Assembly (NCBI GenBank): GCA_028869255.1
Contig: CP110972.1
Location: 3,043,001 to 3,107,000 of the forward strand
Source: Pseudomonas poae
Lineage (GTDB): Bacteria > Pseudomonadota > Gammaproteobacteria > Pseudomonadales > Pseudomonadaceae
Length of the DNA stretch: 64,000 nucleotides
Direction: 5' to 3'
Each line of letters starts with the position of its first letter. The first letter of the stretch is position 1. The position numbers were made by a program, and so were the translations under genes. The notes beneath the pieces are model-generated. The model was not told the DNA's origin, did not search any database, and worked only from the letters and a program-made list of their open reading frames with translations. This document shows positions 39,856-64,000 of this stretch, one piece after another.

Positions 39856-53893
<14,038 letters not shown>

Positions 53894-53948
53894 TTCTTGG
53901 AGTCCGGAGCAATAGGCAGGAAGCACAAAGGCACGTCGTCCCTATAAA

Positions 53949-53971
53949 ACGAACCGGACGGGGAAAAATTA
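53949..53971 (-). promoter_or_regulatory. Variant PvdS box for the pvdI-pvdD operon
   Basis: Minus strand: CTAAT (TAAT at 53971-53968), 16 bases, CGT (53951-53949). The core has TAAT in place of TAAAT, but the 16-base spacing is kept. It lies 56-78 bp before the chosen ATG. Confidence 0.6.
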
Positions 53972-54051
53972 GCGACGGGATGCAGGCGTGGAGCGGCGTG
54001 TCATCAAGGGTTACATCAATCTCGGCAAGACCAACGGAACACGAGCTAGCA

Positions 54052-54081
54052 TTGACGAACACCACTTTTTGCAACTACATT
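54052..54081 (+). promoter_or_regulatory. Candidate sigma-70 promoter of hicAB
   Basis: TTGACG (54052-54057) and TACATT (54076-54081) with an 18-bp spacer, about 22 bp before the hicA start. AGGGAA just upstream of the GTG serves as ribosome site. Confidence 0.4.
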
Positions 54082-54102
54082 TAGTCGCACGCAGGGAACG
54101 CC

Positions 54103-54354
54103 GTGTCCAAAAATGAAAAGCTGCTCGCCAAATTGCTCAACGAACACATGGCATTTACCTGGCCTGAACTTGTAACGCTGCTGCATCGGCTGGGCTACAC
54201 ACAGATTGAGGGGGCAGGAAGCCGCGTCAAATTCGACAGCGGTGATCCCAGTGCAATGATTACGCTGCACAAGCCCCACCCTGGCAACGCACTGAAACAC
54301 TACATTCGGCGCCAGATCATCGAACAATTGAAGTCAGGAGCACTGATTCAGTGA
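54103..54354 (+). CDS. hicA: HicA-family mRNA interferase toxin
   Basis: 83 residues; small basic toxin of a type II toxin-antitoxin pair, expected to cleave mRNA during translation. The double-stranded-RNA-binding-like fold is suggested by LLHRLGYTQIEGAGSRVKF and the LHKPHPGNALKHY segment, which are hallmarks of one HicA branch. The common GSH motif with its catalytic His appears here as GSR; this variant also exists in other HicA proteins, so activity cannot be excluded. The GTG start follows AGGGAACGCC. The stop overlaps the hicB start by 4 bp (ATGA), typical of coupled toxin-antitoxin genes. It lies between the pyoverdine operon promoter and the terpenoid locus. Confidence 0.85.
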   Translation: MSKNEKLLAKLLNEHMAFTWPELVTLLHRLGYTQIEGAGSRVKFDSGDPSAMITLHKPHPGNALKHYIRRQIIEQLKSGALIQ

Positions 54355-54716
54355 ACAACCAACTGAAACACAAAGGCTACATCGGCTCTATCGAAGCCAG
54401 CCTCGAAGACAACTGCCTGTTCGGCAAGATTTTGTTCATCAAGGCGCTGGTGAGCTACGAAGGCAAAACCGTCGCCGATCTGGACGCGGCATTTCGTGAG
54501 GCGGTGGACGACTATCTCGCCACCTGCGAGACGCTGGGGCAAACAGCGGAAAAACCGTGCAAAGGCTCGTTCAATGTCCGCGTCGGGCATGACCTGCATT
54601 TGGCTGCGGCCTTGGCTGCCACCCGTAAAAAAGTCACGCTCAACGACCTGACGCGCCAGGCGCTGAATGAGTTTCTGCAACATCACAGCGCAAATGTTTG
54701 CCCGGCGGCCGGCTGA
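54351..54716 (+). CDS. hicB: HicB-family antitoxin
   Basis: 121 residues. The N-terminal half (GYIGSIEASLEDNCLFGKI ... YEGKTVADLDAAFREAVDDY) is the RNase-H-like HicB fold that blocks the toxin. The C-terminal half (NVRVGHDLHLAAALAATRKK then VTLNDLTRQALNEFL) is a ribbon-helix-helix DNA-binding segment, so it probably represses its own promoter. Its ATG overlaps the hicA stop. It ends 8 bp before the tail of the convergent dxr gene, with no room for a separate terminator. Confidence 0.88.
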   Translation: MNNQLKHKGYIGSIEASLEDNCLFGKILFIKALVSYEGKTVADLDAAFREAVDDYLATCETLGQTAEKPCKGSFNVRVGHDLHLAAALAATRKKVTLNDLTRQALNEFLQHHSANVCPAAG

Positions 54717-54724
54717 CGGCGAAC

Positions 54725-55906
54725 CTAGACGCTCGACACACACAGGCGCACATGCTCTCGCGCCAGTCGCCGCGCCTGGTGGTCCAGGCCGAGAATCGCT
54801 TCAAGGTCGACTTCGTTGGGCAGGTCGATATGTTGCAACGTCTGTTCGACCACCTCGCAAATCTGGGTAAATCGAATACGCCGGCCCAGGAACGCCTCGA
54901 CCGCCACCTCGTTGGCCGCATTCATGGCTGCACTGGCCTGGGCACCGTCAGCCAATACCTGTAATGCCAGGCCAAGGCACGGAAAACGCTCCACGTCAGG
55001 GTGTTCAAAGGTCAGCCCGGCATAGCGGGTCAGGTCCAGCGGGGCCACGCCCGACTCAATGCGTTGCGGATATGCCAGGGCATGGGCCACTGGCATGCGC
55101 ATGTCGGGGTTGCCCAGTTGCGCCATCACCGATTGATCACGAAACACCACCATGGAATGCACCACGCTTTGCGGATGAATCAGCGCCTCGATGCGCTCGG
55201 CTGGCAGGTTGAACAACCAATGGGCCTCGATGATCTCCAGGCCCTTGTTCATCATGGTCGCGCAGTCCACAGAGATCTTGCGGCCCATGGACCAGTTGGG
55301 GTGGGCGCAGGCTTGTTCGGGCGTGGCCTCGCCCAGGCAGTCCAATGGCCAGTCCCTGAAAGGCCCGCCGGAAGCCGTCAGCACCAGGCGCTCAACGCCG
55401 TCAAACGTGCCATGGCATCCTTGCAGGCACTGGAAGATCGCGTTGTGCTCACTGTCCAGCGGAATAACGATGGCGCCTGCCCTGGCAGCGGTTTCAATGA
55501 ACAACGCCCCCGAGACGACCAACGCTTCCTTGTTGGCCAGCAGGATTTTCTTGCCGGCCTGTGCGGCGCTCAAGGTCGGCAACAACCCCGCCGCACCGAC
55601 AATCGCCGCCACTACGGTGTCGACCTGCGACTCCCGCGCTGCGGCGCACAACGCATCGGTGCCACATAGCACCTCCGTGGGCACGCCGGCCGCCAACAGA
55701 TGCGCCTGTAATTCGATGGCGTGTTGCGGCTCACTGACCACCGCTATCGCGGGCCGAAATCGCAGGCATTGCTGGTACAGCTTGTCCATACGCCGATGAG
55801 CGGTAAGGCCGTGGACCATAAATGCCTCGGGGTGACGCGCGACTACATCTAAAACACTGTCGCCGACCGACCCGGTTGAACCGAGAACGAGCAGGCGTTG
55901 CATCAT
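54725..55906 (-). CDS. dxr: 1-deoxy-D-xylulose 5-phosphate reductoisomerase, locus-specific copy
   Basis: 393 residues. Second step of the MEP isoprenoid pathway: NADPH-dependent rearrangement of DXP to MEP in the cytoplasm. NADPH-binding GSTGSVG near the N-terminus, LANKEAL, the metal-binding DSEHNAIFQ, TASGGPF, HPNWSMGRKISVD and IHPQSVVHSM are all present. One odd residue: the conserved SVDSATMMNKG reads SVDCATMMNKG (Cys at about residue 215), replacing a phosphate-contacting Ser (Ser222 in E. coli). In Pseudomonas the housekeeping dxr lies in the uppS-cdsA-dxr region, so this is very probably a second copy. It faces the terpene synthase gene across 282 bp. A choice of two adjacent ATG codons changes only one residue. 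Confidence 0.93.
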   Translation of the reverse strand: MMQRLLVLGSTGSVGDSVLDVVARHPEAFMVHGLTAHRRMDKLYQQCLRFRPAIAVVSEPQHAIELQAHLLAAGVPTEVLCGTDALCAAARESQVDTVVAAIVGAAGLLPTLSAAQAGKKILLANKEALVVSGALFIETAARAGAIVIPLDSEHNAIFQCLQGCHGTFDGVERLVLTASGGPFRDWPLDCLGEATPEQACAHPNWSMGRKISVDCATMMNKGLEIIEAHWLFNLPAERIEALIHPQSVVHSMVVFRDQSVMAQLGNPDMRMPVAHALAYPQRIESGVAPLDLTRYAGLTFEHPDVERFPCLGLALQVLADGAQASAAMNAANEVAVEAFLGRRIRFTQICEVVEQTLQHIDLPNEVDLEAILGLDHQARRLAREHVRLCVSSV

Positions 55907-56084
55907 GGTCTTGCCATCCGTAACTGATAACTGACAGAGACAAGCCTAGGCGCCTTGACCCGTATTACAACGGCAACCACTATAATAATTAGCGATAGAG
56001 CTTCTACTTATCCATCCCAATCACTGCGTATATCAAAACACAATAACAGCAATTGCAAACCAGACTAACAAAACTGAAGTCCGC

Positions 56085-56115
56085 TTGAATTATTAAGGTA
56101 CTCTCTCACTATAAT
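56085..56115 (+). promoter_or_regulatory. Possible sigma-70 promoter of the terpene synthase gene
   Basis: TTGAAT (56085-56090), a 19-bp spacer and a perfect TATAAT (56110-56115), about 75 bp before the gene. The spacer is longer than ideal. A second TATAAT at 55981 lies 20 bp after a TTGACC. The whole 55907-56188 intergenic region is visibly AT-rich. Confidence 0.35.
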
Positions 56116-56188
56116 TCTTCATCACCTGCCAACTCGCCCCAAGGTCCGCAGTATCGTCCTAGGCTACAGATACTGTGGAGCTGTTCAA

Positions 56189-57145
56189 ATGAATGTAACC
56201 GACATTCCATTTCGCCCTGCGTGTGCACATGCGCAAAACGAGCCTCCGCCGCACGCTCAAGCTGTTGAGCAGCATGTACTTGAATGGACAGAAGCCCAAC
56301 AACTGGCCACTGACCCTGACTTTCACAGCGAATTGATCAGCTCCAGGTTCGGGTGGCTCGCTGCACGCTGTTATCCCAATGCTTCTATGAGTTTACTGAA
56401 CACCATCGCCGACTTTCTTACTTGGCTGTATCTCGTTGACGATCGGCTATTTGACCGAGCCCAGCGTATACCACGCGCAATCATTGCGGATGTCAGCGCC
56501 CTCTGGAACGTCCAGGGGCAGCAGGATAAGACTTCGCCAGCCGCCCCCTTGCAAAACGCGTGGCGAGACATTTGCACGCGCCTTCTGAAACAAATGGGCA
56601 GCGTCTGGCTACACCACTTCATCACTAACGTACGCATGATGTACGGTGCCAATACCCTACAAATCATTGGGCAGCTACATAAAATAAGCATCGACAAACA
56701 CGCTTATGAAATACTTCGCTACCATAATAGCGGCTTAGTCCCCTGTTTTGATTTTTACGGTACCAGCGTAGGTTATCAACTACGCGACGAAGATCGCTAC
56801 TGCCTTAACCTTCAAACATTGTCACAGCAGGCCAATATCATTATCGCCTTGTGCAATGATATTCACAGTTATGCACACGAGACCAGGCAGCGGGGACACT
56901 ATGAAAACCTGGTTTGTCTGCACGTTTTTGAAGGCCACACGTTAAAAGAGGCACTTAGCCTGGTATCGGACACTGTCCAGCACCCATTAAACAACTTCGA
57001 CGCGTTGTCCGAGCATCTATTTCATACCTCTACTCCCGCCGTCCGACGCTATATCAATGAACTGCAACATTGGATCATCGGTTATCAATACTGGGCATTT
57101 AACGATACTTGTCGCTATGTCTGCGTCTCGACGAATGATTCATGA
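56189..57145 (+). CDS. Class I terpene synthase (terpene cyclase), product unknown
   Basis: 318 residues. The enzyme should ionise a prenyl diphosphate (GPP, FPP or GGPP) and cyclise it. All hallmarks of bacterial class I cyclases are present: the aspartate-rich motif DDRLFD (84-89), the pyrophosphate-sensor Arg177 in ILRYHNSG, the NSE triad NDIHSYAHE (223-231, exactly 46 residues after Arg177), and the RY pair (309-310) near the C-terminus. Length fits family members such as pentalenene and geosmin-domain cyclases. The closest product class cannot be assigned from sequence alone. Codon use and base composition are clearly more AT-rich than in neighbouring genes, a sign of horizontal acquisition. 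GTGGAG about 8 bp before the ATG is the ribosome site. dxs follows after about 53 bp in the same direction. Confidence 0.9.
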   Translation: MNVTDIPFRPACAHAQNEPPPHAQAVEQHVLEWTEAQQLATDPDFHSELISSRFGWLAARCYPNASMSLLNTIADFLTWLYLVDDRLFDRAQRIPRAIIADVSALWNVQGQQDKTSPAAPLQNAWRDICTRLLKQMGSVWLHHFITNVRMMYGANTLQIIGQLHKISIDKHAYEILRYHNSGLVPCFDFYGTSVGYQLRDEDRYCLNLQTLSQQANIIIALCNDIHSYAHETRQRGHYENLVCLHVFEGHTLKEALSLVSDTVQHPLNNFDALSEHLFHTSTPAVRRYINELQHWIIGYQYWAFNDTCRYVCVSTNDS

Positions 57146-57198
57146 CGTGTTGATTGGGTGGGCTGACCGCCAGGACGAGCACGGTGGAGATGCGGACT

Positions 57199-59028
57199 AT
57201 GTATGAACTACTAGAGTCAGTGAACAACCCTGCGTGCCTGCGCAGTTTGCACCCTGCAGCCTTGGGGCCTTTGGCACATGAACTGCGGGCATTTATCCTG
57301 CAGAGCGTCAGCGCCACAGGCGGCCATCTGTCGGCCAACCTGGGCACCGTCGAGCTGACCATCGCCCTGCATTACGTGTTCGACACCCCGGATGACCGGA
57401 TTGTCTGGGACGTAGGGCACCAGGCGTATGCCCACAAGATCCTCACCGGGCGCCGCAACGACATGCCTGGCCTTCGTCAGCTTGGCGGGATTTCGGGGTT
57501 TCCGCGCCGGTGCGAGTCAGGCTACGACTGTTTCGGTACCGCCCATTCCAGCACCTCGATTTCGGCCGCCCTGGGCATGGCCCTGGCTGCTCGTAACCTG
57601 GGGCACCCGCGCCATTGCATCGCCGTAATCGGTGACGGTGCCCTGAGCGGCGGCATGGCCTTCGAGGCACTCAATAATGCGGGGCTGTTCCGTGACCTGC
57701 CGTTTCTGGTGATCCTCAATGACAACGACATGTCGATCTCGCCGTCGGTGGGCATGCTGCGCGAACACCTGGGCGCGTTGACCGCCGACCGTCATGGCAG
57801 CCACGACCCCAGTGTGTTCAAGGCACTGGGCCTGGGCTACCACGGCCCTATCGACGGGCATGACCTGAGCGAACTGGTGGACACGTTGCGTCGCCTGAAA
57901 AACCAGCGGGGCCCACAGCTGCTGCACATCATCACCGAAAAAGGCCACGGCTACTCGCCCGCTGCCGCCGACCCGGTGCTGTATCACGGGCCGGGCAAGT
58001 TTGACCCGATCCAAGGGATTCGCCCGGCGGCTCCCGGCGCGCTCACCTACACCCAGGTGTTCGGCCAGTGGCTGGCGGATGAAGCCGCGCGCGACCCACG
58101 GCTGGTGGTGATCACCCCAGCCATGCGCGAAGGCTCCGGGCTGGTGGCGTTCGAGCGACAGTTTGCCGAGCGTTACTTTGATGTAGGGATCGCCGAGCAG
58201 CACGCGCTGACCTTCGCCGCCGGCCTCGCCGCCGATGGCATGAAGCCGGTGGTGGCCATCTACTCGACGTTCCTGCAACGCGGTTATGACCAACTGATCC
58301 ACGACATAGCCCTGCAGCAACTGCCGGTGGTGTTTGCCATCGACCGCGCCGGCATCGTGGGGGCAGACGGTGCCACCCATATGGGTGCCTTCGATATCGC
58401 TTACTTGCGCTGCGTCCCCCATCTCACCGTGATGGCGCCCGCCGACGAGCAGGAGTGTCGGCAGATGCTGCACACCGCTCTGCAGCAATCGGGGCCTTGC
58501 GCCGTGCGCTACCCTCGGGGTTCGGGCAGCGGTATCGCGCCTTCACCCGAGCTGACCGAGCTGGCGGTGGGCAAGGGCGAAATCCGCCGCGTCTGCACCC
58601 AGCCCCACGGCAAACGTATCGCCATCCTGGCCTTTGGTTCAATGACGCTAAGGGCGGTGGCAGCGGCAGAATTGCTCGACGCCACCCTGGCCAACATGCG
58701 CTTTATCAAACCGCTGGACCACACCCTGCTCCAGACGCTGGCACGCGAGCATGATTGGCTGGTGACGGTTGAAGAAGGCTGCGTGATGGGCGGCGCCGGC
58801 TCGGCCTGCCTGGAATACCTGGCCAGCCAGAACCTGCGGCCTCCCCTGCTGCTGCTGGGCCTGCCCGACCACTTTATCGAACACGGTACACCTGAGCAGC
58901 TCCTGAGCCAGTGCGGCCTGGACGCCGAGGGCATCACGCAGGCGATACAGCGCTTCGCCGATGAGCACCAGCTGGGTTACCCATTGCCCAGCACCGCACC
59001 GGCCTACCACGCGAGGGCCTGCACATGA
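57199..59028 (+). CDS. dxs: 1-deoxy-D-xylulose-5-phosphate synthase, locus-specific copy
   Basis: 609 residues. Thiamine-diphosphate enzyme that condenses pyruvate and glyceraldehyde 3-phosphate to DXP, the flux-controlling entry of the MEP pathway. Visible motifs are [20 protein letters not shown], the TPP/metal motif [32 protein letters not shown] with the catalytic Glu, and [16 protein letters not shown] chose ATG 57199, which has GGAG nine bases upstream; an ATG at 57190 and a GTG at 57154 are in frame but less well placed. The N-terminus is slightly shorter than in housekeeping Dxs proteins (~620-635). Its stop overlaps the ispH start (ATGA). Its base composition is GC-rich, unlike the preceding terpene synthase gene. 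Pseudomonas normally keeps dxs beside ispA and xseB, so this is an extra copy. Confidence 0.94.
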
Positions 59029-59954
59029 ACATTATCCTGGCTCAGCCCCGGGGCTTCTGTGCGGGCGTGGTACGCGCCATCGACACGGTTGAACAGGCCC
59101 TGGAACGCTTCGGCGCCCCCGTCTACGTGCGCCATGAAATCGTGCATAACCGCCATGTAGTGAAGTCACTGCGCGACCGGGGCGCCGTATTTGTCGAGGA
59201 CCTGGAACAGGTGCCGGTAGGTGCGGTGACTATTTTCAGCGCACATGGGGTGGCGCAAGCGGTGGAACATCAGGCTTCGCAGCGTGAACTCCACGTGCTC
59301 GATGCCACCTGCCCGCTGGTGACCAAAGTGCACCTGCATGGGCGCCAATACGCTGCAAAGGGATACCAGTTGGTCCTGATCGGCGAGCATGGCCACCCGG
59401 AAGTCATCGGCATCCAGGGTCAGGTCGACGCGCCGATCACCTTGATCCAGACCGTCGAACAGGTGCAGGCCCTGATGTTTCCTGCCAACACGCCGTTGGC
59501 CTACCTCACCCAGACCACCTTGAGTGTCGATGCCACACGTAACGTGATCGATGCCTTGAAGCAACGCTATCCGCAGCTTGTCGGGCCGGCCAGCCGCGAC
59601 ATCTGCTATGCGGTACAGAACCGTCAGCAGGCCGTGCGTGAGCTGTGCACCCAGGCGGATGTGTTGCTCGTGGTCGGCAGCCCCAACAGCGCCAACGCCG
59701 TGACCTTGTGCGCACTGGCCAACGAGAGCGGCACGCCCAGCTACCTGGTGGCCGACGGCAACGAGGTAGATGCGAACTGGTTTACCCCGCAGATGAGCGT
59801 GGGAATCAGCGCCGGTGCGTCAACCCCGGAGGCTTCGGTGCAAGACGTCATCGCGGCCCTGGCGCGCATTGCACCGCTGCACATCCAGACCTTGCCAGGT
59901 CGCGAGGAACACGTGCAGTTTCGCCCGCCAGCCGGCCTGATTGCGCGGCAATAG
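59025..59954 (+). CDS. ispH: 4-hydroxy-3-methylbut-2-enyl diphosphate reductase, locus-specific copy
   Basis: 309 residues. Iron-sulfur enzyme making IPP and DMAPP in the last MEP step. The three cluster cysteines are at 12 ([11 protein letters not shown]), 96 ([11 protein letters not shown]) and 194 ([10 protein letters not shown]). Substrate-binding histidines are in [20 protein letters not shown] and IGEHGHPEV (with the catalytic Glu), and the serine/asparagine set is in GSPNSANA and [10 protein letters not shown]. The start overlaps the dxs stop by 4 bp, showing translational coupling. The housekeeping Pseudomonas ispH lies with lspA and fkpB, so this is a second copy. ispG follows after 18 bp with GAGGAG as ribosome site. 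Confidence 0.95.
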
Positions 59955-59972
59955 GCCCGAGGAGTTACCACC

Positions 59973-61250
59973 ATGAACATCCCGATTGCGCGTCGCCTCA
60001 CGCGTCAAGTACAGATCGGCAACGTGTGCCTGGGCAGCGACGCACCGATTGTGGTCCAGGCCATGACCAATACCGACACCGCCGATGCCCACGCCACCGC
60101 CGCGCAGGTCGAAAGCCTGGCCCGTGCCGGTGCGGAGCTGGTGCGCATCACCGTTAACGGCCACGAGGCGGCCGCCCAGGTGGCGACCATCCGCGAACTG
60201 CTGGATCGGCGCAATCTCGATGTACCGTTGGTGGGCGACTTTCACTTCAACGGCCATCGCCTGCTGGCCACGTACCCGGAATGTGCCCAGGCCCTGGCCA
60301 AGTACCGGATCAACCCCGGCAATGTCGGCAAGGGCGCACGGCGCGATGAACAGTTCTGCCAGATGATCGAAGTGGCCTGTCGGTATGACAAACCGGTGCG
60401 CATAGGCGTCAACTGGGGCAGCCTCGACCCGGACCTGTTGGCGCGCATGATGGATGCCAACGCCGCCCTCCCCGCACCGCTGGCGGCCGACGCAGTGATG
60501 CGAGAGGCACTGGTGGTGTCGGCGCTGGACAATGCCCACCGGGCAATCGAGGTGGGGTTGCCGGCCGATCATATTGTGTTGTCGGCCAAGGTCAGCCATG
60601 TGCAGGACCTGATCGCGGTGTATCGCAACCTGGCGGCGCGCTGCGATTTCCCGCTGCACCTTGGGTTGACCGAGGCCGGCTTGGGCTCCAAAGGGATCGT
60701 CGCCTCAACGGCGGCCCTGGCCGTGCTGCTGCAGGAAGGTATCGGCGACACCCTGCGCATTTCCCTCACCCCTGACCCCGGGGGTGAACGGTCCAAGGAG
60801 GTGCAGGTCGCCCAACAGATTCTGCAAACCATGGGTTTGCGTGCCTTTACGCCGCAAGTGGTGGCGTGCCCGGGGTGCGGGCGAACCACCAGCGTGTTTT
60901 TCCAGGAACTGGCGCAGCGTATCGAAAGCTACCTGCGCGAGCAGACGCCGCTGTGGCGTAGCCGTTATCCCGGCGTCGAGCGCATGCAGGTCGCGGTCAT
61001 GGGCTGTGTGGTCAATGGCCCCGGAGAAAGCCGTTTGGCCGATATCGGCATTTCTTTGCCCGGTGCCGGGGAACATCCCAGCGCACCGGTCTATATAGAT
61101 GGCGAACGGGTGATGACGCTGAAGGGGCCGACCATCGCCGAGGATTTCATCTGCCTGTTGGAGGCTTATGTGGCCGCGCGCTATGGCCTTCAGCATCAGG
61201 CTTTGCAGGCACTGCTCTCAGCCCAGTCGCCGATAGCCCAACAGCGCTGA
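59973..61250 (+). CDS. ispG: 4-hydroxy-3-methylbut-2-en-1-yl diphosphate synthase, long-type copy
   Basis: 425 residues. Iron-sulfur enzyme converting MEcPP to HMBPP. Motifs include [19 protein letters not shown] at the N-terminus, [23 protein letters not shown], the cluster cysteines in [10 protein letters not shown] and [11 protein letters not shown]. The usual Pseudomonas IspG is about 370 residues, with ACPSCSRQ and no [13 protein letters not shown] segment. This protein has that extra block and GCGRTTS, resembling the longer IspG of beta- and alphaproteobacteria (from memory of those families). It is therefore probably foreign. It is the last gene of the TPS-dxs-ispH-ispG run, and its 3' end overlaps the convergent MFS gene by about 33 bp. 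Confidence 0.94.
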
Positions 61251-62390
61251 GCCCAGCACCACCGCCCCCGCCGCCAACGCGACCCAGAACCCGCTGGTAG
61301 CGCCAAAGTGGTCGATCATCCAGCCGGAGCTGGCGGCGCCGATGGCCACGCCGATGCTGAGGCCGGTGATCAGCCAAGTCATGCCTTCGGTCAGGCGGCT
61401 CGGCGGCACGATGCGCTCTACCAGCGCCATGGACACGATCAGCGTGGGCGCGAAGAACAGGCCGGAAATGAAGATCGCGACCGCCAGGCCGGGAATATTG
61501 TTCACCAGCAGCAACGGCAAGGTGGTCAGTGCCGTGGCCACACCACAGAACAGAAATTGCCGGGGCAGCGGCGCCTCGAGTTTGAGTGTGCCGAACGCCA
61601 ACCCTGCCAGGCATGAGCCGATGGCGTACACCGACAGCACGATACTCGCCGCCGCCGGCTGGCCCTGATGCTGGGCGAAGGCCACGCTGACCACATCCAC
61701 CACACCGACAATCACGCCCATGGCCAGCAGCAGGATCATCAGGATCAACACCGAGGGCGAGGCGATCAGCCAGCCACCGTGATGCTCATGGTGTTCGTGC
61801 ACCGCAGGTTCGGTGTCGCGTTGCAGCACAAACGTGGTGACGCCCACCGCCAACAGCAATGCCGCGACCAAAGGCCCGGCTTCGGGAAACAGCACGACGC
61901 TGAGCCCTACCGAGATCGGTGGGCCGATGATAAAACACACCTCGTCCAGTACCGACTCCAGGGCAAACGCGGTTTGCAGTTTGGGCTGGCCGCGGTACAA
62001 CTCGGTCCAGCGTGCGCGCACCATGGCCGACATGTTGGGCATGCAACCGGCCAGGGCGGCGAACAGGAACAGCGTCCAGCTCGGTGCCTGCAAACGGGTG
62101 CACAGCAACAGCATCAGCAACGCGCCACCGCCGATCAGCGCGGCGACCGGCAGCACCCTGCCCTGGCTGTAGCGGTCGACCAGACGTGAAACCTGCGGCG
62201 CGCAAAACGCCGTGGCCAAGGCAAACACCGCCGCTACCGAACCGGCCAGGCCATAACCGCCGTGCACTTGCGACAGCATGGTGATCAAGCCGATACCGGT
62301 CATCGACACCGGCATGCGCGCCAGCATGCCCGCCAGTACAAAAGCCCGGGCGCCGGGAACCTGGAACAACTCGGCGTAGGGGTTTGCCAT
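61218..62390 (-). CDS. MFS transporter
   Basis: About 390 residues, inner membrane, with roughly twelve hydrophobic segments (for example [73 protein letters not shown]). Between the two halves is a short polar, histidine-rich loop (HEHHEHHGG). [14 protein letters not shown] resembles the cytoplasmic loop-2 motif of the superfamily. The substrate cannot be predicted. I chose ATG 62390; a GTG three bases upstream is also in frame. It lies 40 bp after the MATE gene in the same direction, so they may be co-transcribed. Convergent and slightly overlapping with ispG; no direct evidence ties it to terpene export. Confidence 0.85.
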
Positions 62391-62430
62391 CACTTAAAAG
62401 CCTTCTGTCCTGAAGTTGCGCATCCTTTTA

Positions 62431-63785
62431 TCACACCAGGCGCTTGATCTGTTTATGCCGCCACACCAACCGGTAGTACGCGGTCTGCAACCCCAGCATC
62501 GCCAGGTAGGTCACCGGAAACGCCATCCACACCCCTTCCAGGCCAAAGTGCGCGTTGAGCAGGTACGCCATCGGCAACTCCACGCACAGCACGCAGAAGA
62601 TCGAGATCGCCACCGGCATCAGCACCACCCCGCTGGCGCGCATGATTCCGCCGATCACGGCCTGGAACCCGAACACCAGGATGCTCCACAACATGATGTG
62701 CAGCAGGTGTTCGGCATTCACCCGCGCAGCGTCATCGGTGATAAACAAACCGAGCAACCAGTGGGACAGCGCGTAGCCCAGCACGATCAAGCCACCGGTC
62801 AGGCAGGTGTTGATCAACAACCCGGTGCGCAGGATCGGCCCGATCCGTTCAAGCCGTCCGGCGCCAATCGCCTGGGCCCCCAGGATCGAAGCGGTGATGG
62901 CAATCGACAGCGCAGGGAACTGCACGTAGTTAACGATCTGCGTCACCGCGCCATAGGCCGCCGTGGCCTGTGAACCGTGGCTGTTGACCAGGGCCAGAAT
63001 CACCAGTTCCGACAGCGACAGCACCACCATCTGCAAACCGGTAGGCAAGCCGATGCGTAGGACTTTGCCCAAAATTACGCGGTCCAGGCGCAAGGCCGCG
63101 AGCAGTTCACGGTCCGGCGCCATCACGTGGTTTTTGTGGCGCAGGCGCAGGATCAGAAACAGCATCGCCGCCGCGTTACCCACCAGGCCCGCGTACACCG
63201 CGCTCTGAATACCCATCGGCGGCAGGCCGATCCAGCCGCGGATCAACGCCGGGGTCAGCAACAGCCCCACCAGGGTCGAGACCATCAACGCCAGCAATGG
63301 CGAAAGGGTGTCACTGACCCCGCGCAGTAACTGGGTGTAGAGGATAAACACCAGCAGCAACGGCATGATCAGCATCATCATCTGGGCATAGCCCACCGCA
63401 TCGTCGAGCACATCCAGCGGTGTGCCCAGTGCCTGCAGCGCCGGGCGCGCAAACAGGCTGCCGAGCACCGCCGCGGTCAGGCCCACCAATGCGCCCAGGG
63501 TCAGGGTCGCGCCGGTGATCGCCTTGACCATGCCGGTTTCCTGCGCCCCCAGGCCTGGCCGATCAACACCGAAGCGCCCGCCCCCAGGCCGATCACCAGG
63601 GCAATAAAGAAGAACACGATGGGGAACATCCCCGACACCGCCGCCAGTGCCTGGGTGCCGAGCATTTGCCCGACATAAATGCCATTGAGCGTGCCGGAAA
63701 AACTCTGCAGGAAATTGGACAGCACCATCGGCGCCAGAAAGATCAGGTAGACCTGCCACAGCGGGCGTTGCAAAGAGCTTTGCAT
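62431..63785 (-). pseudogene. MATE-family efflux transporter (NorM-like), one-base frameshift as sequenced
   Basis: About 451 residues when corrected. Multidrug and toxin extrusion proteins use Na+ or H+ gradients to expel cationic compounds. The N-terminal part (LWQVYLIFLAPMVLSNFLQSF ... NGIYVGQMLGTQALAAVSGMFP ... GLGAGASVLIGQAWG) has the family start. The rest (AQETGMVKAITGATLTLGALVG onward, with LRIGLPTGLQMVVLSLSELVIL later) continues in another frame. The break is at the G-run TGGGGGCG (forward C-run 63546-63550): one more base would give WGAQETG. A missing base in a homopolymer is a typical sequencing artefact. ATG 63785 opens the gene. Confidence 0.85.
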
Positions 63786-63858
63786 GAAAAACGTGGCCTC
63801 GGATAACTAAAGCGTCCGAGGGTTATACCGTAATTGGATCCGATCTTCCTGTGCTTTA

Positions 63859-64000
63859 TCAGGGCATCGGCTCGACCACCAGGCTGGCATTGCGCACCGT
63901 CGCGTTCAGGCGTTGGGCATGCCCTTGCAACACACATTCGGCAATCGCCGGCTCCAGTTCCACCCGCAAACGCCGGCCCAACGCCCGCGCACCAAATCGA
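63859..64000 (-). CDS. C-terminal end of a Clp/Hsp100-like AAA+ ATPase (cut by window edge)
   Basis: Only 46 residues before the stop are visible. FGARALGRRLRVELEPAIAE followed by CVLQG aligns with the ClpB-type C-terminus [20 protein letters not shown] followed by QILSG, with matching GAR, Arg, Glu and Gly positions. The tail ASLVVEPMP fits the usual final strand. It could be a ClpB or ClpV paralogue; the ATPase motifs lie outside the window. It is separated from the MATE gene by 73 bp, and both are on the minus strand. Confidence 0.55.
   Translation of the reverse strand, partial: RFGARALGRRLRVELEPAIAECVLQGHAQRLNATVRNASLVVEPMP

Follow-up and report, generated by a model that had tools for sequence, protein, structure and literature searches.

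Precursor genes packed beside terpene synthases are already known from Pseudomonas. For the noncanonical clusters of this genus, including those of chlororaphen and grimophan (pgr), the Figure 2 legend of PMC13022886 names IDI, DXR, DXS, IspH and IspG beside terpene synthases, and each of the 12 clusters drawn there contains two or more methyltransferases. Here, we describe a locus of Pseudomonas poae in which a class I terpene synthase (TS) gene lies between a divergent dxr gene and a dxs-ispH-ispG run, the four genes belonging to the methylerythritol phosphate (MEP) pathway. It is located in a 64-kb window (C1:3043001-3107000, the whole stretch of DNA analysed), which comes from a one-contig genome of 6.80 Mb. 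As in the chlororaphen and pgr clusters, precursor genes are packed with the cyclase, whereas no methyltransferase, IDI, IspA or Rieske genes were found in the window. Because MEP genes have already been described in terpene clusters of Pseudomonas (PMC13022886), the arrangement is of a known kind. A preliminary description of this DNA had known of no described product for the arrangement, and as regards the arrangement itself this is not supported as worded: dxr, dxs, ispH and ispG are all named in the published legend. As far as our literature searches tell, what is new is a minimal form of the cluster that lacks a methyltransferase and whose cyclase slot is exchangeable. The explanation that we favour, with moderate confidence, is that the island was acquired horizontally and retains its precursor genes as a frame, the cyclase being exchangeable and expendable. 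No description of cyclase replacement in an MEP frame, or of the leader element reported below, was found in the literature searched, a coverage that leaves most subscription journals outside.

Two other systems are comparable. The sodorifen cluster of Serratia plymuthica also has its cyclase in a small operon-like cluster, but, in the excerpt of PMC10881772 consulted, its substrate comes from a farnesyl diphosphate (FPP) methyltransferase/cyclase, and the P. poae locus has no such gene. The germacrene D-4-ol synthase of Collimonas pratensis accepts FPP, geranyl diphosphate and, weakly, geranylgeranyl diphosphate (excerpt of PMC4690342), and by that description it is a proteobacterial canonical synthase to which the P. 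poae TS can be likened. In a Collimonas fungivorans metagenome-assembled genome (L068), a synthase that falls in the clade of the P. poae TS (31% identity) is also found beside MEP genes.

The terpene island, its empty site and the extra MEP genes

Genes were called from the open reading frame (ORF) list and from profile matches (Pfam, TIGR/NCBIfam). The P. poae locus is one of six homologous loci, the others being L054 (P. viridiflava p4.G3), L055 (P. syringae PA-4-7F), L056 (P. aylmerensis), L057 (P. kairouanensis) and L061 (Pseudomonas sp. MYb60), with the species names of compared loci as deposited in the records. An empty site is present in genome G004 (locus L174). The features in window coordinates are as follows:

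54351-54716 (+), HicB-family gene, left flank, kept at the empty site of G004 (PF05534, E 3.6e-17)
54725-55906 (-), extra dxr (DXP reductoisomerase), divergent (TIGR00243, 499 bits)
55907-57235 (no strand), segment that differs from L054 by replacement, comprising the divergent promoter region, the leader, the TS and the initial ~40 bp of dxs (BLASTN alignments break at 55907 and 57236)
56143-56159 (+), conserved leader element GGTCCGCAGTATCGTCC, ~30 bp upstream of the TS start
56189-57145 (+), class I terpene synthase (TS), 318 aa (PF19086, E 4.5e-25, 89 bits)
57199-59028 (+), extra dxs (TIGR00204, 753.5 bits)
59025-59954 (+), extra ispH (PF02401, E 2.4e-91)
59973-61250 (+), extra ispG, long betaproteobacterial type (PF04551, E 4.5e-114)
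61218-62393 (-), MFS transporter, right flank, adjacent to HicB in the empty locus L174 (PF07690)
62431-63759 (-), MATE transporter, right flank, also at the empty site L174 (PF01554)

All five genes, from the divergent dxr and TS to dxs-ispH-ispG, are full-length and placed as the preliminary description had them. The comparison across Pseudomonas genomes that it proposed found the same gene order in related genomes, and because of this recurrence the five-gene arrangement is more than chance. Small corrections are that the 3′ end of ispG overlaps the convergent MFS gene by 33 bp and that dxr abuts the HicB gene. The overlap of dxs and ispH is 4 bp, and dxs likely starts at the ATG at 57199, the mechanical ORF (57154-59028) opening at a TTG 45 bases earlier. 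The absence of ispD, ispE, ispF and a prenyltransferase gene from the locus was also borne out, as none was present among the ORFs examined there. In tblastn searches of the 64-kb window, a single relative of IDI-IspA, of the FPP methyltransferase and of the Rieske protein each served as the query, and no match was obtained.

At the empty site of G004, the HicB and MFS genes are adjacent with no gene between them. Window positions 53222-54692 and 61222-63871 align to positions 4172-2702 and 2672-21 of L174, respectively, and none of dxr, TS, dxs, ispH and ispG is present within this 4.2-kb locus. Because these flanks are contiguous in L174, the insert extends from ~54.7 to ~61.2 kb (~6.5 kb). 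Therefore, the terpene island is a clean ~6.5-kb insertion between the HicB gene and the MFS-MATE pair. In L058, L065, L157, L158 and L159, MEP cassettes are likewise located close to this MFS gene (77-80% identical), which suggests that the site is a preferred one.

A tblastn-type search of the whole genome found one further copy each of dxs (C1:6554152-6555987, 54-63% identity in two pieces), dxr (C1:4411266-4412423, 59%), ispH (C1:4933278-4934207, 52%) and ispG (C1:156278-157327, 41%), none with internal stops. Judged by these comparisons, the MEP genes of the island are extra copies and not the housekeeping set, in agreement with the preliminary description, which had proposed this search. 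The genome also encodes two polyprenyl synthases, one of them less than 300 bases from the housekeeping dxs; therefore, FPP can come from the host. The earlier view that the host would supply the prenyltransferase is supported, and this precursor must be of host origin.

The origin of the cassette was evaluated in an IspG tree of 86 rows (a short search, with support by the Shimodaira-Hasegawa-like approximate likelihood ratio test, SH-aLRT, only). The 18 Pseudomonas cassette proteins (support 98) joined those of Collimonas, Glaciimonas and Variovorax (SH-aLRT 100) amid mostly betaproteobacterial rows, and the housekeeping IspG of P. poae was a very distant outgroup. For IspG alone, the tree is thus support for, but no proof of, a transfer from Betaproteobacteria, because its rows were picked by similarity to the P. 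poae IspG. In the scan of genome contigs with this protein, 13 of the best 80 of 339 loci were from Pseudomonas.

States of the cyclase slot and persistence of the precursor frame

The six homologous loci share the divergent dxr, the dxs-ispH-ispG run and the same right-hand neighbours, except that L061 is without the MFS gene and that in L056 an insertion between ispG and MFS carries genes for another synthase and a polyprenyl synthetase (L056:11320-13293). HicB was found in four of the six. The reading frames of dxr, dxs, ispH and ispG are uninterrupted in each of the six loci, with pairwise dN/dS values of 0.07-0.16, whereas the TS slot varies. The slot is intact in P. poae and in L054, where the TS has been replaced by one 40% identical to that of P. 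poae. The TS of L056 (73% identical to that of L054) is damaged, with 49 residues missing ahead of the Asp-rich motif and the NSE motif altered. L055 has a P. poae-type TS in pieces, with two deletions and three remaining stretches (DNA identities of 92%, 80% and 85%, with a one-base gap in one of them), and L061 has stumps, including an 86-residue frame with a TS-like start and end. In L057, the TS is wholly absent, and the leader element stands directly before dxs in a dxr-dxs gap of 262 bases. From these reading frames, the slot looks usable in two of the six loci. The preliminary description had interpreted the cluster as a dedicated precursor boost for one terpene. This is weakened by the five other loci, and because the MEP genes stay open while the TS slot varies, it is probably too narrow.

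The exchange of the cyclase is seen in the comparison of P. poae and L054. The two DNA sequences are 98% identical at 55.8-55.9 kb, fall sharply to 43-70% identity across 55.9-57.3 kb and return to 94% at 57.3-57.4 kb. The synonymous divergence (dS) is 0.24 for dxr, 0.26 for dxs, 0.23 for ispH, 0.17 for ispG and 0.15 for MFS, whereas the synonymous sites of the TS are saturated (proportion of differences, pS, 0.80). Therefore, the segment comprising the TS and its promoter was replaced between these two loci. P. poae and L055 have the same promoter and TS type, and dS between them is lower for dxr (0.24) and dxs (0.32) than for ispH (0.53), ispG (0.53) and MFS (0.38), a pattern as expected if this part of the locus had been exchanged between lineages. 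In a TS tree, the synthases of P. poae, L054, L056 and one from Collimonas formed a single clade (100/100) with long branches, and therefore the slot genes are homologous.

We also surveyed 398 genomes of the genus, that of P. poae included. A cassette-type IspG (E <= 1e-100) was found in 12 genomes and a PF19086 synthase in 52; the synthase was present in 11 of the 12 genomes with cassette IspG versus 41 of the 386 others (Fisher p 7.6e-10, without regard to relatedness). The one cassette genome lacking a synthase, G186, contains an incomplete ispG and no other cassette gene within 19 kb. The genomes of L055, L057 and L061 have two, one and one PF19086 matches, respectively, all outside the cassette, and one such remote synthase in each is related to the others (L053 is 71-72% identical to the other two, and L160 and L153 are 90% identical). 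The genomes of P. poae and L054 have the slot TS only, and that of L056 has two other synthases, neither near the remote type, the C25 one being a TS-P450 fusion. The occurrence of the remote synthase in the three genomes without a slot synthase and in none of the other three (p 0.10, n=6) makes a supply of this synthase by the frame in trans a lead, not a result. The remote synthase of P. kairouanensis adjoins a squalene-hopene cyclase-like protein (L053:7055-8584, -).

Taken as a mechanism, the four extra MEP enzymes would raise the supply of isopentenyl and dimethylallyl diphosphate, host IspD, IspE, IspF and an IspA-like prenyltransferase would complete the route to FPP, and the TS would cyclise FPP, with no methylated substrate, to a canonical terpene. 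The synthase would be swapped by recombination and lost from some lineages, in which the frame may go on to supply a synthase from another part of the genome. Several observations weigh against this explanation. In the excerpt of PMC13022886, removal of pgrAB (IDI, DXS) from an E. coli construct left the product titre similar, which questions the assumed boost, and the frame does not always survive, with dxr truncated in L058 and L065 and ispH in pieces in L065. Such decay, seen also in G186, would suit an ordinary self-contained cluster, in which the MEP genes feed this one TS only and the loci without TS are dying clusters caught early; so would the tight coupling of dxs-ispH-ispG and the synthase in 11 of 12 cassette genomes. 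We regard this as rather unlikely, as the TS is absent, fragmented or damaged in four of six loci with the MEP genes open in all, and as L057, with the leader directly before dxs, is left with a functional-looking operon. The persistence of the frame in L055, L057 and L061, which have no slot synthase, could instead point to a role outside terpene synthesis, such as tolerance of DXR/DXS inhibitors (e.g., fosmidomycin) or back-up of the iron-sulphur steps, and drug-exporter-like MFS and MATE genes adjoin. These two genes were not brought by the cassette, because they are already at the empty site L174; moreover, the cassette tracks the synthase genome-wide and all four genes are kept, not dxr alone, so that a role of this kind appears improbable.

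Two further alternatives concern the synthase itself, and we give each of them very little credence. The single clade of the slot synthases would be compatible with one gene having diverged rapidly under positive selection in P. poae and L054, but the contrast of the saturated TS with a dS of 0.24-0.26 in the adjacent dxr and dxs, the replacement of the divergent promoter as well, and the retention of the P. poae type with its promoter in L055 all speak for a replaced allele. A cluster of the sodorifen or chlororaphen type, making a methylated C16 or C17 terpene, would account for MEP genes and a related IspG being shared with the methyltransferase clusters L058, L060, L062, L065, L068 and L157. 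This was already disfavoured, as the locus has no methyltransferase, the genome has no close relative of one, and the P. poae TS belongs to a separate clade. If a kept frame with a swapped or dropped cyclase is the right account, two terpene-pathway parts usually thought to travel together are set apart, and the loci provide a natural series at one site (intact type A, intact type B, damaged, fragmented and deleted) in which the effect of the MEP genes on terpene output and the remote synthases could be tested.

The terpene synthase and its likely product

The TS scored well above the curated cut-off of PF19086 (89 versus 23.7 bits), and it reached no NCBIfam equivalog cut-off (best 94 of 450 bits). 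It contains D84-D85-x3-D89, N223-D224-x2-S227-x3-E231 and R309-Y310, which we take to be the Asp-rich motif, the NSE motif and the C-terminal RY, respectively; D84, D85 and R309 are invariant across 26 synthases. An initial structural model built from four sequences was poor (pLDDT 61.8) and was not used, and the AlphaFold2 prediction used here gave an alpha-helical class I fold (pLDDT 85.5, pTM 0.88). With the metal-binding motifs present and a confident model, the intact catalytic signatures of the preliminary description were upheld.

The folds nearest to the model were those of the 1-epi-cubenol (9hqb, TM 0.87), T-muurolol (9hr0) and selinadiene (4okm) synthases, which are FPP sesquiterpene synthases, with C10 and C20 synthases following closely behind in the ranking. 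These solved enzymes and the 10-epi-cubebol synthase (7zrn) are actinobacterial, chloroflexal or myxobacterial according to their entry titles, whereas the TS described here is from Pseudomonas. A close relative of the FPP methyltransferase was not found in the P. poae genome, which gave one generic match only (28%, E 1.5e-4), and because of this the product is likely a canonical terpene made with no methylated substrate. From the fold comparison, a cadinane- or germacrane-type sesquiterpene made from FPP would be most likely. A single-protein scan of genome contigs with the TS gave 14 pattern matches, none related, and a search for a similar locus on plasmids with the TS as query (31 records) showed none, the best identity being below 26% among the 20 listed.

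The leader element and other terpene loci

The sequence GGTCCGCAGTATCGTCC recurs ~28-33 bases upstream of the first start codon. The pattern GGTCCGNAGTANCGTCC has 10 exact matches in the 398 genomes, of which five precede terpene operons (G000, G067, G131, G171 and G234) and five are inside one conserved coding gene. The latter gene (in L163, L164, L166, L168 and L171) holds the 17-mer by chance of codons. The pattern is not over-represented genome-wide, as a reversed control gave ~32 matches in the same genomes; therefore, frequency alone means nothing, and placement alone is telling. A gapless matrix made from nine training sites was scanned on 60 loci, several of them overlapping. In eight held-out genomes (G044, G402, G403, G083, G352, G208, G040 and G165, some close to the training ones), matches of 19.0-34.2 were found before IDI, dxs or TS starts, compared to a null maximum of 15.6. 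Most terpene loci scanned with the matrix had no match above this maximum, and it also fails to detect the elements of L054 and L056, whose spacer is longer.

The flanks of the leader often pair (TTGG/CCAA or CTGG/CCAG), which fits a putative DNA dyad. A conserved RNA hairpin was also considered and was dropped: the structure z scores were strong in P. poae (-4.3) and L057 (-3.2), moderate in L054 (-2.6) and L065 (-1.9), and showed no structure in L061 (-0.5) and L066 (+0.5). A broader proposal, which we put forward only tentatively, is that the MEP genes form a frame that supplies C5 units to any cyclase in the cell, that recombination targets the slot together with its promoter and exchanges alleles of one divergent synthase clade between species, that the frame outlives loss of the slot by feeding a TS in trans, and that the leader (GGTCNGCAGTANCGTCC, ~30 bp before the first start codon), common to the frame and other terpene operons, marks an unrecognised Pseudomonas terpene regulon. 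The leader element, if real, would be a handle to find and switch on silent Pseudomonas terpene operons.

Other Pseudomonas loci are larger than the six homologous ones, with IDI, IspA or Rieske genes in several of them. Six tested loci contained a relative of the L060 methyltransferase (L058, L060, L062, L065, L068 and L157), whereas the methyltransferase, IDI-IspA and Rieske queries had no match in any of the six homologous loci. In L060 of P. spelaei, NUDIX and polyprenyl synthetase domains are joined in a single frame (L060:1421-2863, +), an IDI-IspA-like fusion for which alignments along most of the frame were also obtained in L058 and L062. An N-terminal NUDIX (IDI-like) domain is fused to a PF19086 synthase in single frames of L039 (1477-2997, -) and L037 (907-2448, +), and a TS is fused to a cytochrome P450 domain in a 762-aa frame of L162 (8592-10877, -). 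Elsewhere in the window, two overlapping nonribosomal peptide synthetase frames (39856-53926, -; 4162 and 544 aa) appear to be a single gene with a break near 52.3 kb, unlike the single open frame of this stretch in L054, L055, L056 and L061.

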